From the IMG/VR virus record IMGVR_UViG_3300048041_000018, positions 1 through 21,520 of that record: 21,520 nucleotides of DNA; one strand, written 5' to 3'. The notes under the pieces were generated by a model that saw only the letters and a program-made list of their open reading frames with translations, made no database searches and was not told the DNA's origin. Made by a program: the position numbers and the translations under genes. Below, piece after piece: positions 4,916 through 21,520 of the stretch (position 1 is its first letter; every line of letters starts with the position of its first letter). Source of the DNA: a virus.

Positions 4916-5436
4916 TCTCCGCGCTCCTGTTCTACCTTGTTTACGATTGGCTTTGCATAAACACCGGATAAATCTGTTAATGGATAGGCAAATCTTCGGC
5001 AAGCGTCAATTGTGGCTTCCGACGCCCGCATCAACTCAACATGCCGGGCCGCAATCAGTCGCTCGATGAATTCTTCGCGCTTTTCGGCTTCGGTATTAAG
5101 CCGGTAAACCTCGGCCTGTGCGTCCGGTGGGAAGGAGTAGAGTGGTACTGTATCTCCACCAAATGCGTGAGTATGCCCGTCAAAATAAAGTATCGTATGC
5201 AGGGGTTCCGCATTGACTTTTAGCCAAATCATACATTTTTCAGATACGTAAGCCACAGGTTCAGGCCCCGGCACGCTGGCACGCGTAGCCTTCCAACTAG
5301 CGAGCGCCGCAAAGGCTTGATCGTATGCATTGTTGTGCCAAACGCGCACGTTCTTCACCTGCCATTCCATCAGGGCTTCTAGCGCTTCCACTAGGTTTTG
5401 ATCGGCCTCAGCCACTTGCTTGATGTAATCAGTCAT
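4912..5436 (-). CDS. Early phage protein of unknown function (174 aa)
   Basis: A 174-residue protein beginning MTDYIKQVAEADQNLVEAL. The ATG at 5436 overlaps the stop of the alanine-rich gene upstream (ATGA); an extension to 5475 is less likely. The first 50 residues form helices (ALEALMEWQVKNVRVWHNN, FAALASWKATR). The middle carries PEPVAYVSEK and a GGDTVPLYSFPPD segment that resembles the G-D-x-P-L-Y-x-x-P motif of common phage accessory proteins, including some annotated as Ea22-like; that relation is an impression. The C-terminal half is helical and charged (NTEAEKREEFIERLIAARHVELMR). It stands in a chain of overlapping early genes, so it is co-translated with its neighbours. No function can be given. 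Confidence 0.8.
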   Translation of the reverse strand: MTDYIKQVAEADQNLVEALEALMEWQVKNVRVWHNNAYDQAFAALASWKATRASVPGPEPVAYVSEKCMIWLKVNAEPLHTILYFDGHTHAFGGDTVPLYSFPPDAQAEVYRLNTEAEKREEFIERLIAARHVELMRASEATIDACRRFAYPLTDLSGVYAKPIVNKVEQERGE

Positions 5437-6107
5437 TTCTCGCCATCCTCTTGCCATGGGGCCAAACCATTGCACATCTTAATAAACATCTCCGATTGCG
5501 CGCGCCTAACAGCAGCATAAGCAACATCAGCAGCATCAGCAGCAGCCTCAGCAGTATCAGCAGCAGCCTCAGCATCCTCAGCAGCACGCGCAGCAGCATC
5601 AGCAGCAGCATACGCAGCAGCATACGCAGCATCAGCAGCAGCATACTCAGCAGCACACGCAGTATACGCAGCATCAGCAGCCTCAGCAGCAGCCGCAGCA
5701 GCAGCCCGAGCAGCAGCCTGAGCAGCCCCAGCAGCATCCCCGGCATCCCTAGCCTCCGCCTGCGTTGCCTGGTTGTTAGCAAACTTTTCAGCCTCATCAT
5801 TGCATGCTTTTACGCGTGGATCGGTGCTCAGATGTTCGACTTGTCGAGCGCACCAAACTGCAAATAACCGGCAATCGCGTTCGATATCAGGCACGGAACG
5901 GAGTGCCCACAGCGCATTATCTAAACCGTTGCTATTACAAATATCAACCAAACTGATTGGCTCTTTATGCGCGAAGATGATGTATGACTCTCGCGCTGCG
6001 TCCCCTCTTGTAAAGGATGCGTTTTGTAGCATGCGCACAACTCGGTTGTAGCCTTCAAAACAAGCGCCAGCATCTCGGAGGGCTTTTAGTGTTGTTGTTG
6101 TGTACAT
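5433..6107 (-). CDS. Early phage protein with a long alanine-rich repeat domain
   Basis: A 224-residue protein beginning MYTTTTLKALRDAGACFEGYN. The ATG at 6107 follows GGGGA and lies 1 base after the previous gene's TGA. Residues 1-120 look like a folded domain (RVVRMLQNASFTRG, ISLVDICNSNGLDNALWALRSVPD, CRLFAVWCARQVEHL). Residues from about 121 to 205 are almost wholly alanine with Asp, Glu, Tyr and Arg at intervals, in units such as AADAAYAAAYAAADAA; this should form one long helix. The tail (SEMFIKMCNGLAPWQEDGEK) is ordinary again. The Ala tract is coded by a GCT/GCA-rich near-repeat at about 5510-5745, which could expand or contract by slippage. The N-terminal fold resembles proteins with such tracts in other phages, but I know no function. 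Confidence 0.82.
   Translation of the reverse strand: MYTTTTLKALRDAGACFEGYNRVVRMLQNASFTRGDAARESYIIFAHKEPISLVDICNSNGLDNALWALRSVPDIERDCRLFAVWCARQVEHLSTDPRVKACNDEAEKFANNQATQAEARDAGDAAGAAQAAARAAAAAAAEAADAAYTACAAEYAAADAAYAAAYAAADAAARAAEDAEAAADTAEAAADAADVAYAAVRRAQSEMFIKMCNGLAPWQEDGEK
5510..5745. repeat. GCA/GCT trinucleotide-rich tract coding for the alanine-rich helix
   Basis: About 235 bases consist mostly of AGC-AGC, CAT-CAG, ATA-CGC and CCT-CAG triplets on the plus strand, read on the minus strand as GCT/GCA/GCG Ala codons with scattered Asp, Tyr and Glu codons. It lies wholly inside the gene at 5433-6107 and stays in frame. The other strand and frames give poly-Leu and poly-Ser open frames that are artefacts. 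Confidence 0.85.
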
Positions 6108-6108
6108 G

Positions 6109-6519
6109 TCATTCCCCTTTCGCAGCGGATTCATACCCCGGACGCATCACCAGCGATTCGCGCCAGTTGACTCCGATCGTGTTGATGTTGAGACATCGGA
6201 GGCTGCATGCCTCGGCGCTCATGCTCGACCACGCACTATGGTCTGGCGTGGGCACCGAGGTATATGCGTGCACCCAGCCATCCGCGTCCATCGCCACCGC
6301 CACAATATCGGACCGCAGAACGTCCCAAGGAATGACGAGCTGGCGGGGCTTGATGCGGTAGCAGCTGCTCGGGTGAATAAAGTGGGTAGACGAGTTGCGT
6401 TTTATCAGCCACACCCCGTCCGGCTGATAAAACTCCACGCTTACCGGATCAGCAACCAGCGCCTCGACAATCTCGCTACGCTGTTCAGGCGTCATGTCTT
6501 TAAATTTGATCGGTCCCAT
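6109..6519 (-). CDS. Early phage protein of unknown function (136 aa)
   Basis: A 136-residue protein beginning MGPIKFKDMTPEQRSEIVEAL. The ATG at 6519 follows AAGGAG 11 bases upstream. The N-terminus is a short helix. A strand-rich segment follows (VSVEFYQPDGVWLIKRN, HPSSCYRIKPRQLVIPWDVL), then IVAVAMDADGWVHAYTSVP and a C-terminal part with two cysteines (CSLRCLNINTIGVNW). The RIKPRQLVIPW segment resembles a phrase (Y-R-I-K-P-x-x-x-x-I-P-W) that recurs in small proteins of many temperate and virulent phages, so a related beta-rich fold is likely. No catalytic site is visible. It starts 8 bases after the gene upstream stops and ends 1 base before the next ATG, as part of one leftward early operon. 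Confidence 0.8.
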   Translation of the reverse strand: MGPIKFKDMTPEQRSEIVEALVADPVSVEFYQPDGVWLIKRNSSTHFIHPSSCYRIKPRQLVIPWDVLRSDIVAVAMDADGWVHAYTSVPTPDHSAWSSMSAEACSLRCLNINTIGVNWRESLVMRPGYESAAKGE

Positions 6520-15654: not shown

Positions 15655-16488
15655 ATGGCTAACACCATCGGCATCAACCCGTCGCTCACTACCAACGTAG
15701 TCGGCTCGTTTTCCGTTCAGTCGAACGGCTTCTACCAGGGCGAGATGCTGGACGACCCTGCAGGTCGATTCTCAATCTCGACTGGCGCGCTGGCCACCAC
15801 CGAAACCCTGCCAATGTGGGCAGGTGTCGCTATTTATGAGGCGATTCCGACCGGCGGTGATAGCGTGCTGGGTTCCACTATTGGTCGCGCACTGAGCGCC
15901 GCCAACATCGCCGGGTTCTCGATCCTGAATCAAGGCTCCAACGGCATCACCACCCCGCAATCTAGCGCGCCGATGTTCTCGGCGGGCATGACTGTACCGT
16001 ATGTTCGCTACGGTTCGGAAAATCGCGTTGCGGTGCAGTGCTCGGCGGCATTGGCATCGTTGGATGGCGGCATGTCTAACCAGCTCGTCGGCTGGGATCT
16101 GACTAACCAACAATTGATTCCGTATCAAACCATGGCCGCCACACTGGCCATCACGGGTCTGACTTGGTCGGGTGGCGTGGTGAGCGTGACCACCACCTCA
16201 GCTCACGGCGTGAGCACAGGCGCGTATGTCACCATCGCGGGCGCGGCACCGGCGGGATACAATGGCGTATATCAAGTCACCGTGACCAGCACCACCACGT
16301 TTACTTATCTGCTGGCGACTAACCCAGGTTCTGAAACCACGTTCGGCACCGCTGGCGCAGCCTCGGCCGCATTGCCCGTCAAGGTGTTGCAGATCCTGAC
16401 CGGCAACAGCAAGACCATTATTTACGATTCGGTAAACAATTTTGCAAACTTCACTCCGACCGGCAACGCCGCTCTGATTCTCATCTAA
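15655..16488 (+). CDS. Capsid cement/decoration-like structural protein with inserted beta module
   Basis: A 277-residue protein beginning MANTIGINPSLTTNVVGSFS, 3 bases after the protease gene. It is Gly/Ser/Thr-rich with little charge, as outer capsid proteins are. Residues 1-160 (FYQGEMLDDPAGRF, GSTIGRALSAANIAGFSILN, MTVPYVRYGSENRVAVQCSA) and 240-277 (VKVLQILTGNSKTIIYDSV) look like one structural cement protein of the kind encoded just before DUF2184 capsid genes. Residues 165-231 form a separate module, with WSGGVVSVTTTSAHG, PAGYNGVYQVTVTSTTTFTY and NPGSETTFG. A close copy occurs in the tail sheath protein at the right end. The module seems inserted between PYQTMAATL and ALPVKVLQI. It resembles the short beta domains often annotated as FCCH-like in phage proteins; that name is from memory. 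Confidence 0.74.
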   Translation: MANTIGINPSLTTNVVGSFSVQSNGFYQGEMLDDPAGRFSISTGALATTETLPMWAGVAIYEAIPTGGDSVLGSTIGRALSAANIAGFSILNQGSNGITTPQSSAPMFSAGMTVPYVRYGSENRVAVQCSAALASLDGGMSNQLVGWDLTNQQLIPYQTMAATLAITGLTWSGGVVSVTTTSAHGVSTGAYVTIAGAAPAGYNGVYQVTVTSTTTFTYLLATNPGSETTFGTAGAASAALPVKVLQILTGNSKTIIYDSVNNFANFTPTGNAALILI

Positions 16489-16501
16489 AGGGACATGACT
16501 C

Positions 16502-17524
16502 ATGGCTAACGTAACCCCAAGCTGGGTACAGATGCACCCGTCGTATGTAATGCCGGAAGTGTTGCTGCAGTATCAGCAAGCATCTGGCGCATTCGACACG
16601 CTGGCGACCGGCAACCCCATGGTTCGCCTGGGCGAGGGTGATCTGTACGCTTACATCAAGGCGTTTGATATCCGAACCAAAGTCACTGCCGCGCAAGCCG
16701 CCGGCAACATGCTGCCGAGCGTCACTGTCAACGCCCGCATGATTTCCACCCCGTCGTACCTGCTCCGTGTTCGGGCGGAGTACGATCATCACGACACCGC
16801 GGCTTTCGGGCAATGGGGTGCGTCGCTGGTCGAAGCTCAACGTCTCGGCATGCGTCAGGGTATTTTCCAACAACTGCGCAATTCGCTGCTGTACGGCTTC
16901 AACCCGGCGAATGGCGAGGGTCTGGTTAATACCAACGGCGCAACAGCCGTGTCGTTGCCGCCCGATAGCAACGGTAACACCACCGTGGTGACGTACGACA
17001 ACGGTCAGATGGCGGTGTTCCTGTTGACCCAAATCAGCGCGCTGAAGACCCGTTGCATGCAACTGGGTATGCCTGCTCGAATCACTGTCTGCGGCCCGCA
17101 ACGCACCCTGGGGGCATTCGAGTACCAGAATATCGTGCAGCTGACTCAGTTCCAGCGTGCTGGTGGCGGTACTTTGCCGACAGCAGGCGTCGTCAAGGAC
17201 ATTCTGGATCTGAACGGCGACGAGATCGACTGGGTTTACGATGACACCTTGATTGGCAAGGGCGCGGGCGCGACCGACGCGGTAATTATTAACATCCCGG
17301 AAATCAAGAAGCCGAGCGCACACCGCATCGACACCAACGAGTTCGCCAAGCTGTCACCCGGCCTGGAGGCATGCGCGCTGATGCTGTGCGACATGGCGGC
17401 GCCGCGTGAAATCCCTACCCCACTGGCGGGTGGCGCGGTGGATGTTGTTTCCGAACTGCGTGCTACCTCGGGTTGGGGTGTTCGTCCTGAAGCACTGACA
17501 ATCGTCAGTATGCAATATTCCTGA
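16502..17524 (+). CDS. Major capsid protein, DUF2184-like
   Basis: A 340-residue protein beginning MANVTPSWVQMHPSYVMPEV. The ATG at 16502 follows AAAGGGA. It should form the head shell (HK97 fold). The N-terminal arm is followed by FDIRTKVTAAQAAGNMLPSV, an E-loop-like region, the long helix segment HHDTAAFGQWGASLVEAQRL and IFQQLRNSLLYGFNPANGEG. The A-domain region contains TRCMQLGMPARITVCGP, and the end is WGVRPEALTIVSMQYS. The whole agrees with DUF2184 capsid proteins. It follows protease and cement genes and is followed by a terminator, the usual place for a protein made in large amounts. No obvious N-terminal processing site is seen. On the opposite strand a 280-codon open frame is a coding shadow. 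Confidence 0.9.
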   Translation: MANVTPSWVQMHPSYVMPEVLLQYQQASGAFDTLATGNPMVRLGEGDLYAYIKAFDIRTKVTAAQAAGNMLPSVTVNARMISTPSYLLRVRAEYDHHDTAAFGQWGASLVEAQRLGMRQGIFQQLRNSLLYGFNPANGEGLVNTNGATAVSLPPDSNGNTTVVTYDNGQMAVFLLTQISALKTRCMQLGMPARITVCGPQRTLGAFEYQNIVQLTQFQRAGGGTLPTAGVVKDILDLNGDEIDWVYDDTLIGKGAGATDAVIINIPEIKKPSAHRIDTNEFAKLSPGLEACALMLCDMAAPREIPTPLAGGAVDVVSELRATSGWGVRPEALTIVSMQYS

Positions 17525-20400: not shown

Positions 20401-21520
20401 ATGGCAAACCCGATTGTACAGATTAACGTCAGCGTGACGAATCCGCCCGCGCCGAGCAAGCTGCTCCGCACTGGGGCGATTGCCTCGCAGGGTGGCACGT
20501 CGCTGGCCCCCGGCACATATTCGTTGCTGACCCAGAATAGCGACCTGACGCCGCTGCTGACCGCAGGCAAGGCAATCACCAGTGCGGTATGGTCGGGTGG
20601 CGTGGTGACGGTTACGACCACCGCGCCCCACGGATATCCCAGCGCCGAGACTATCGGCCTGACCGTCGCAGGCATGACACCTGCAGCGTACAACGGTACG
20701 TTCCAGGCAACCATCACCGGCACCAGCACGTTCACCTATCCGCTGGTGAGTAACCCCGGGGCAGCAACCGTGTTCGGACTCGTCACTGACGTGGACGTGG
20801 CGGAATTGATTGCGCAAGTGACGACGTTCTTTGCTCAAGGTAAGTCGGCATCGGTTTACGTGCTGGAATTCGGACCGGGCATCCCAGCTGATGGCGTGAC
20901 CGCGCTCAATACCTACATCAACGCGAACCCCCAGTTTTTCTTCAGTTACCTAGTTCCGCGTGAATGGGATACCGAGCCGACGTTTAAGACGTTCGTCGGT
21001 CAGTTCAACACCCCGTCGGCGTTGGTTAAATTTTTCGTAACTACTACGATCAGCACTTACACAAACTGGACATCGCTGAACAGTTGCGTGTTTGCCCACG
21101 TTGAGGCGCCAGGTTTGCCCGCGACCGAGTTTACTTGCGCGGCGGCATTTTACGTCACGCTGAATTACAACCCGTCTAGCGCGCAACAAGTTAGCCCGCT
21201 GTGCTTCAGCTTTGTGTACGGCGTCACCCCGTACCCGACCGTCGGTAATTCAGCACTGCTCACCACGCTGAAAGCCGCCAATATTAATTATATTGCGACT
21301 GCGGCGGAGGGTGGCTTGACTAACACCATGTTGGTGTGGGGTCACATGCTGGACGGCAACCCGTTTAACTACTGGTACACGATCGCCTGGGCTATCATCA
21401 ATCTTGACGCCAATATTGCAAATGAAGTGATCAACGGCTCAAACAACGTTCTCGCGCCGCTGTATTACAATCAGCCAGGCATCACCCGGCTGGAAAATCG
21501 CGGCGCGAGAACGTTGTTTG
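20401..21520 (+). CDS. Tail sheath protein, DUF3383-like (N-terminal 373 codons, runs off window)
   Basis: The frame is open from the ATG at 20401 (AGGAG 9 bases before) to the right edge. The N-terminus MANPIVQINVSVTNPPAPSK, the segment VYVLEFGPGIPADGVTALNT, PQFFFSYLVPREWDTEPTFK, the C-terminal WGHMLDGNPFNYWYTIAWAI with NLDANIANEVINGSNN, and LYYNQPGITRLENRGARTLF fit the DUF3383 sheath family of myophages. The sheath surrounds the tail tube and contracts at infection. Residues 59-126 (nt 20575-20778) hold a beta module nearly matching residues 165-231 of the cement-like protein (WSGGVV, HG, PAAYNG, TFTYPL, NPGAATVFG). It lies where the family has a variable exposed region. The missing C-terminus is a window effect. 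The call is strong on the C-terminal part and moderate on the naming of the family. Confidence 0.87.
   Translation, partial: MANPIVQINVSVTNPPAPSKLLRTGAIASQGGTSLAPGTYSLLTQNSDLTPLLTAGKAITSAVWSGGVVTVTTTAPHGYPSAETIGLTVAGMTPAAYNGTFQATITGTSTFTYPLVSNPGAATVFGLVTDVDVAELIAQVTTFFAQGKSASVYVLEFGPGIPADGVTALNTYINANPQFFFSYLVPREWDTEPTFKTFVGQFNTPSALVKFFVTTTISTYTNWTSLNSCVFAHVEAPGLPATEFTCAAAFYVTLNYNPSSAQQVSPLCFSFVYGVTPYPTVGNSALLTTLKAANINYIATAAEGGLTNTMLVWGHMLDGNPFNYWYTIAWAIINLDANIANEVINGSNNVLAPLYYNQPGITRLENRGARTLF

Follow-up and report, generated by a model that had tools for sequence, protein, structure and literature searches.

A predicted FCCH-like beta domain inserted in the capsid cement and tail sheath proteins of a contractile-tailed phage

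The window analysed here, a stretch of 21,520 nucleotides from a virus (IMG/VR record IMGVR_UViG_3300048041_000018), encodes two virion proteins that share one module of about 75 residues. How did a head protein and a tail protein come to carry the same module, and what would it do on the phage particle? An earlier note on this DNA had proposed that an exposed domain was inserted into a cement-like protein and a tail sheath protein after moving within the genome, and that it resembles FCCH domains. FCCH stands for the first catalytic cysteine half, a domain of ubiquitin-activating E1 enzymes. In our analysis, the insertion, the host identities and the FCCH likeness hold, whereas a recent move within the genome is not supported.

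The first carrier (15655..16488, plus strand) is a protein of 277 aa encoded just 5' of the major capsid gene. Residues 4–277 match phrog_6268 (E=5.6e-55), and the core of the AlphaFold2 model (mean pLDDT 84.5) matches T1 cement (9kzj_I, Z 14.5), FCWL1 (9kmg_a, Z 14.5), Pam3 (8hdt_G, Z 12.1), TW1 (5wk1_K, Z 10.0) and the E217 decoration protein (8frs_f, Z 9.6). By family, fold and gene position, it is predicted to be a capsid decoration or cement protein, an assignment made from sequence and model. The second carrier (20401..21520, plus strand) is open at the window end, and its N-terminal 373 aa are encoded here. It matches the tail sheath family phrog_205 (E=4.9e-23), and its AlphaFold2 model (pLDDT 87.1) matches the sheaths of Sf14, Bas63, E217 and Mu with Z 18–21, best that of Sf14 (Z 21.3, 3.0 A over 256 residues). 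Sequence family and fold thus predict a contractile tail sheath. No match was found in NCBIfam for the cement or the sheath protein, nor in an alignment of the sheath protein against PDB sequences. PHROG families and fold comparison therefore bear out the proposed hosts.

The surrounding gene order runs from the terminase position (10939) through the portal gene, the MuF-like position, the DUF2213 protein, the cement gene, the major capsid gene and head completion genes to the sheath gene. Myophages of Yersinia, Klebsiella and Pantoea share this order, as does the E. coli prophage Rac-SA53. The portal gene matches Pfam Phage_portal_3 at 52.5 bits. The major capsid protein (16502..17524, plus strand), a landmark outside the module system, was recognised by alignment with relatives so annotated, and is under the Pfam cut-off for Major_capside. 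At the contig end, the last 30 bases (21491–21520) are 87% complementary to positions 21440–21469, about 50 nt upstream. This is a possible fold-back assembly artefact, and the last sheath residues are thus doubtful. Elsewhere in the window, an alanine-rich low-complexity protein (5433–6134, minus strand), opposite which the other strand is also open, contains about 20 overlapping short repeat copies at 5480–5785.

The module spans residues ~161–237 of the cement protein (16135..16365, plus strand) and residues ~57–132 near the sheath N-terminus (20569..20796, plus strand). It lies where it had been placed before but extends slightly wider on both proteins. BLASTP aligns the two copies with 43/83 identities (52%, E=2e-19), so that an earlier count by eye of 37/67 was about right. 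The module is the only similar region between the two proteins, and fold comparison assigns their cores to unrelated folds, in line with the claim that the hosts are otherwise unrelated. A comparison of profiles of the cement-type and the sheath-type modules gives a probability of 99.5 (E=3.4e-23). At the DNA level, a previously noticed exact repeat of 19 bases was found at 16165..16183 in the cement gene and 20590..20608 in the sheath gene (both plus strand), within a longer repeat (16146–16208 and 20571–20633) that is 75% identical. A two-copy match of 19 bases occurred in 0/100 dinucleotide shuffles. BLASTP, profile comparison and shuffles exclude a chance similarity, and the two window copies are homologous: one module does occur in two virion proteins.

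A tblastn search of phages with the 70-aa module alone returned nothing at 1e-3, for which low-complexity masking is the probable cause; phmmer against PDB gave no match, and the module profile gave chance-level matches only. Fold comparison was thus needed. The AlphaFold2 models of both modules have six strands in identical order, and the module is predicted to be a small all-beta, beta-barrel-like domain of the FCCH-like kind. The cement module matches many E1 FCCH structures (Z 10–12, rmsd 1.7–2.0 over 73–77 residues), for instance UBA6 (7pvn; Z 12.0, rmsd 1.8 A over 76 residues, 24% identity) and the isolated mouse FCCH (2v31, Z 10.2). The sheath model independently matches UBA1 (6dc6, E=1.8e-3) in Foldseek. 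Furthermore, baseplate J inserts of two relatives, Klebsiella phage Chronis and Yersinia phage vB_YenM_30.14, pass Pfam E1_FCCH (PF16190) with 57.4 and 54.7 bits, at a cut-off of 29.5. The resemblance to FCCH that had been suggested is therefore confirmed by fold and by Pfam matches in relatives. The window copies themselves score below that cut-off (cement 16.6–17.1 bits, sheath 13.4 bits) and lie in virion proteins without any E1 context; we thus term them FCCH-like and do not file them under PF16190.

Other folds are similar as well. The cement module matches the beta-barrel of the phi92 endosialidase (4HIZ residues 255–338; Z 8.9, rmsd 2.3 over 76 residues, 26% identity), and the module has a profile match to the same structure (E=0.01), whereas the enzyme domain is absent here. 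The corresponding Pfam family End_beta_barrel (PF12195) was matched sub-threshold only, in 4/22 copies (best E=0.01). GenBank labels the cement homologues of Pantoea phage PdC23 (UGC97718.1) and vB_YenM_06.16-1 as "endosialidase". As their core is that of a cement protein, we think that the label was transferred, and that the module's likeness to the phi92 endosialidase alone probably explains this annotation of some cement genes in the family. The module also matches N-terminal domains of tail tube proteins from FCWL1 (9jlf_E, Z 8.5) and T1 (9l0f_G, Z 8.2). The T1 domain, residues 16–94 of gp41, was termed Ig-like by its authors (PMC11945409); gp41 is a siphophage tail tube protein and not a sheath, and the sequence similarity is weak (phrog_584). 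No Ig-like family is among the Pfam matches, and the fold search ranks E1 FCCH and not Ig domains. All 22 copies tested match phrog_9998, PHROG families of virion structural proteins and of tail fibres are hit by many of them, and the same module type occurs in fibre and baseplate J-like proteins of BFVD. Our literature search found no paper on FCCH in phages.

Is the module an insertion? Its presence and absence among relatives answer this question. Cement homologues without the module, with a clean gap, are found in Rac-SA53, pPE4 and QDWS, and sheaths without it in L131–133, L137–138, L145–148, L167, L172 and QDWS. In the module-free homologues of both hosts, the gaps are sharp, in frame and about 75 residues long. 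Among the relatives fetched, lengths are two-peaked in both proteins: the spacing of sheath anchors is 63–66 residues without and 138–147 with the module (one outlier has 218), and the cement tail measures 43–58 residues without and 122–144 with it. The clearest pair is formed by the prophages L132 and L135, which are collinear, 92% identical over 9 kb upstream and 89% over 4.7 kb downstream, with nearly identical cement proteins. Their sheath genes (12971–14050 in L132, 12975–14282 in L135) differ in a segment of 566 bp without and 792 bp with the module; the swap took a longer N-terminal stretch of the sheath, beyond the module itself. Searching relatives for versions with and without the module, as had been advised, thus yielded both for cement and sheath, and the module-free homologues together with the L132/L135 pair substantiate the insertion. 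A different glycine- and serine-rich beta insert (GSGYTSAPTVTFSG... repeats) occupies another site in the module-free sheaths of L012, L145–L148, L167 and L172.

The first module search of the loci found carriers among cement and sheath proteins only, and a more sensitive profile revealed baseplate J. Inserts of ~65 residues are present in baseplate J of Chronis, vB_YenM_30.14, PdC23, QDWS and a Caballeronia prophage, and absent from that of Rac-SA53 and pPE4. The profile of the window-type module matches that of the baseplate J module with a probability of 95.8 (E=6.8e-9), and copies lie at L008:17750–17983, L007:16714–16947, L009:17746–17979, L012:8319–8546 and L174:1444–1671. Judged from these sequences, baseplate J is a third module slot, new in this analysis. 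The window stops inside the sheath gene, and its own baseplate J lies outside. In G205 (C1:38588–38820) and G227 (C1:1196498–1196730), from which L086 and L169 derive, two ORFs of 314 and 197 aa take the place of one baseplate J frame and break inside the module, perhaps through a frameshift or the decay of a prophage.

Copy number varies between phages. In searches of whole records, where slots were assigned by ORF length and position and the profile misses a longer cement insert type described below, we found three copies (cement, sheath and baseplate J) in Yersinia, Klebsiella, Pantoea, Kluyvera, Raoultella and Erwinia phages and two (cement and sheath) in both Serratia prophages. A single copy lies in the sheath of Rac-SA53 types and in baseplate J of QDWS types. 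The same profile searches found no copy in the L131 and L132 phages, and none was detected in any slot of the ~47 kb full records G209 and G210; the module thus seems not to be required.

The overall best explanation, to which we give a probability of about 0.55, is an accessory FCCH-like insert on the virion surface that confers weak adhesion. Its parts differ in strength. That the copies are homologous and that the domain is an accessory one, inserted in surface proteins, is practically certain. Its outward exposure is likely: in the structure predictions, which had been suggested as a check, each host core matches known structures of its kind, cement or sheath, to either side of the insert. 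An adhesive function is tentative, and we hold it at somewhat less than even odds. The FCCH-like domain would occupy the cement and sheath proteins, and in relatives baseplate J, its presence or absence leaving the host core undisturbed. It would project outward from the capsid lattice and the sheath, where its many copies could add weak multivalent contacts to glycans of the cell surface or the environment, and such adhesion would help the phage to reach its host.

We propose adhesion because the module is apparently dispensable and present in several outer proteins, and because it resembles the endosialidase barrel; in K1F, the endosialidase beta-barrel is a binding site for polysialic acid and a hotspot of host discrimination (PMC12632334). 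Furthermore, the similar domain of T1 gp41 extends outside the tail tube (PMC11945409), and adhesion hypotheses exist for the Ig-like domains of virion proteins (PMC9022992). Those promiscuous domains, likewise of small size and beta structure, occur in proteins of the head, tail tube, baseplate and fibres, can often be dispensed with and are thought to aid adsorption (Fraser et al. 2006, reviewed in PMC9022992). The module differs from them in being FCCH-like and in having two fairly close copies (52% identity) in the cement and sheath proteins of one genome.

Several points count against adhesion. No ligand site was found in the module, and the conserved HG, YNG and NPG motifs look more like structural turns than a binding site. 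A fold like that of a sugar-binding barrel does not establish that the module binds sugar, and E1 FCCH domains are not known to bind sugars. The pattern of presence and absence could fit a stabilising or a neutral insert equally well. That the FCCH-like domain in its three slots might coat the contractile phage as one weak adhesin, with a stickiness tuned slot by slot by 0–3 copies, is a speculative extension that we would rather bet against.

The serious main rival to the adhesion reading is stabilisation: the inserts would touch adjacent cement trimers or sheath subunits and make the particle more rigid, and their shared fold would simply be small and well suited to packing. Cement proteins generally have a stabilising role, and the domain is used in three different virion layers. 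For additional sheath domains, both adhesion and stabilisation have been proposed (Evseev et al. 2022, PMC9230969). That text likewise describes a sheath core with extra beta domains away from the tube; it does not mention ubiquitin-type domains, and the passages considered here do not connect domains of the sheath with proteins of the head in one phage. Stabilisation seems somewhat unlikely to us, as very similar phages have a module-free sheath and no copy was detected in whole relatives, so that the module seems not to be needed for assembly. Moreover, fibre-like proteins, which offer no lattice to stabilise, carry the domain type too.

Alternatively, the module might be a nearly neutral promiscuous insert that folds by itself, is tolerated in surface loops and spreads by recombination with little function. 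Repeated gain and loss would fit such an insert: with the module columns removed, presence or absence changed at least two times on the cement tree and at least three times on the sheath tree. The cement slot also accommodates two module types. A second, longer and divergent beta insert is found there in L044, L141–143, L155, L158 and L161, with a weak and uncertain profile similarity to the window type (hhalign probability 21, E=0.001). When the module columns are removed, the window cement core groups with the phages of the long type with moderate support (85/74), whereas the window cement module groups with the Chronis type. This difference suggests, as far as these trees can be read, a replacement of the module within the one slot. 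Near-neutrality is nonetheless unlikely, because both slots are kept across deep divergence, with conserved motifs and in dozens of distinct phages, which would be unexpected for a neutral insert.

A recent copying of the module within the genome, from sheath to cement or back, in the lineage of the window phage would account for the exact 19-base run, which is the longest among the cement and sheath pairs compared; the close relative L004 has two base differences from it. Given both proteins and the codon usage of the window, an identical run of at least 19 bases has P=0.0012, and the codon is shared at 23/42 identical residues where 15.2 are expected (P=0.008); both values take the protein identity as given and thus address codon sharing only. 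However, overall DNA identity between the two modules is just 64%, which leaves room for a short conversion tract at most, and the run may reflect such a tract or codon chance. In the module tree, which has few columns and many open forks, each window module sits with the copies of its own slot: that of the cement protein groups with other cement modules (support 96/89), and that of the sheath is nearest to other sheath modules. Pairs of cement and sheath modules within a genome are no closer than pairs between genomes, and the cement copy of most genomes is equally near to the resident sheath copy and to one from another phage. Cement and sheath copies thus appear to form separate lineages across the family, which makes it unlikely that the module jumped recently from one gene to the other. 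The tree and the pair distances largely refute a recent transposition of the whole module, and we consider recent copying very improbable; an ancient duplication is possible.

Finally, a common ancestral fold, in which cement and sheath share an ancestral core element without any insert, found no support and has next to no probability, as the cores are unrelated folds and module-free homologues of both proteins have flush in-frame gaps, versions that exclude the shared core which the earlier note had named as the case against insertion.

Phages borrow Ig-like domains for display on their surface, and the role of these domains is unsettled. Related copies of one FCCH-like domain in head, sheath and baseplate proteins extend this known habit of decorating particles with promiscuous domains, and connect a common building block of phage virions with a domain that takes its name from the ubiquitin enzymes of eukaryotes. 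Close natural relatives with and without the module provide ready pairs for deciding between adsorption and stability.
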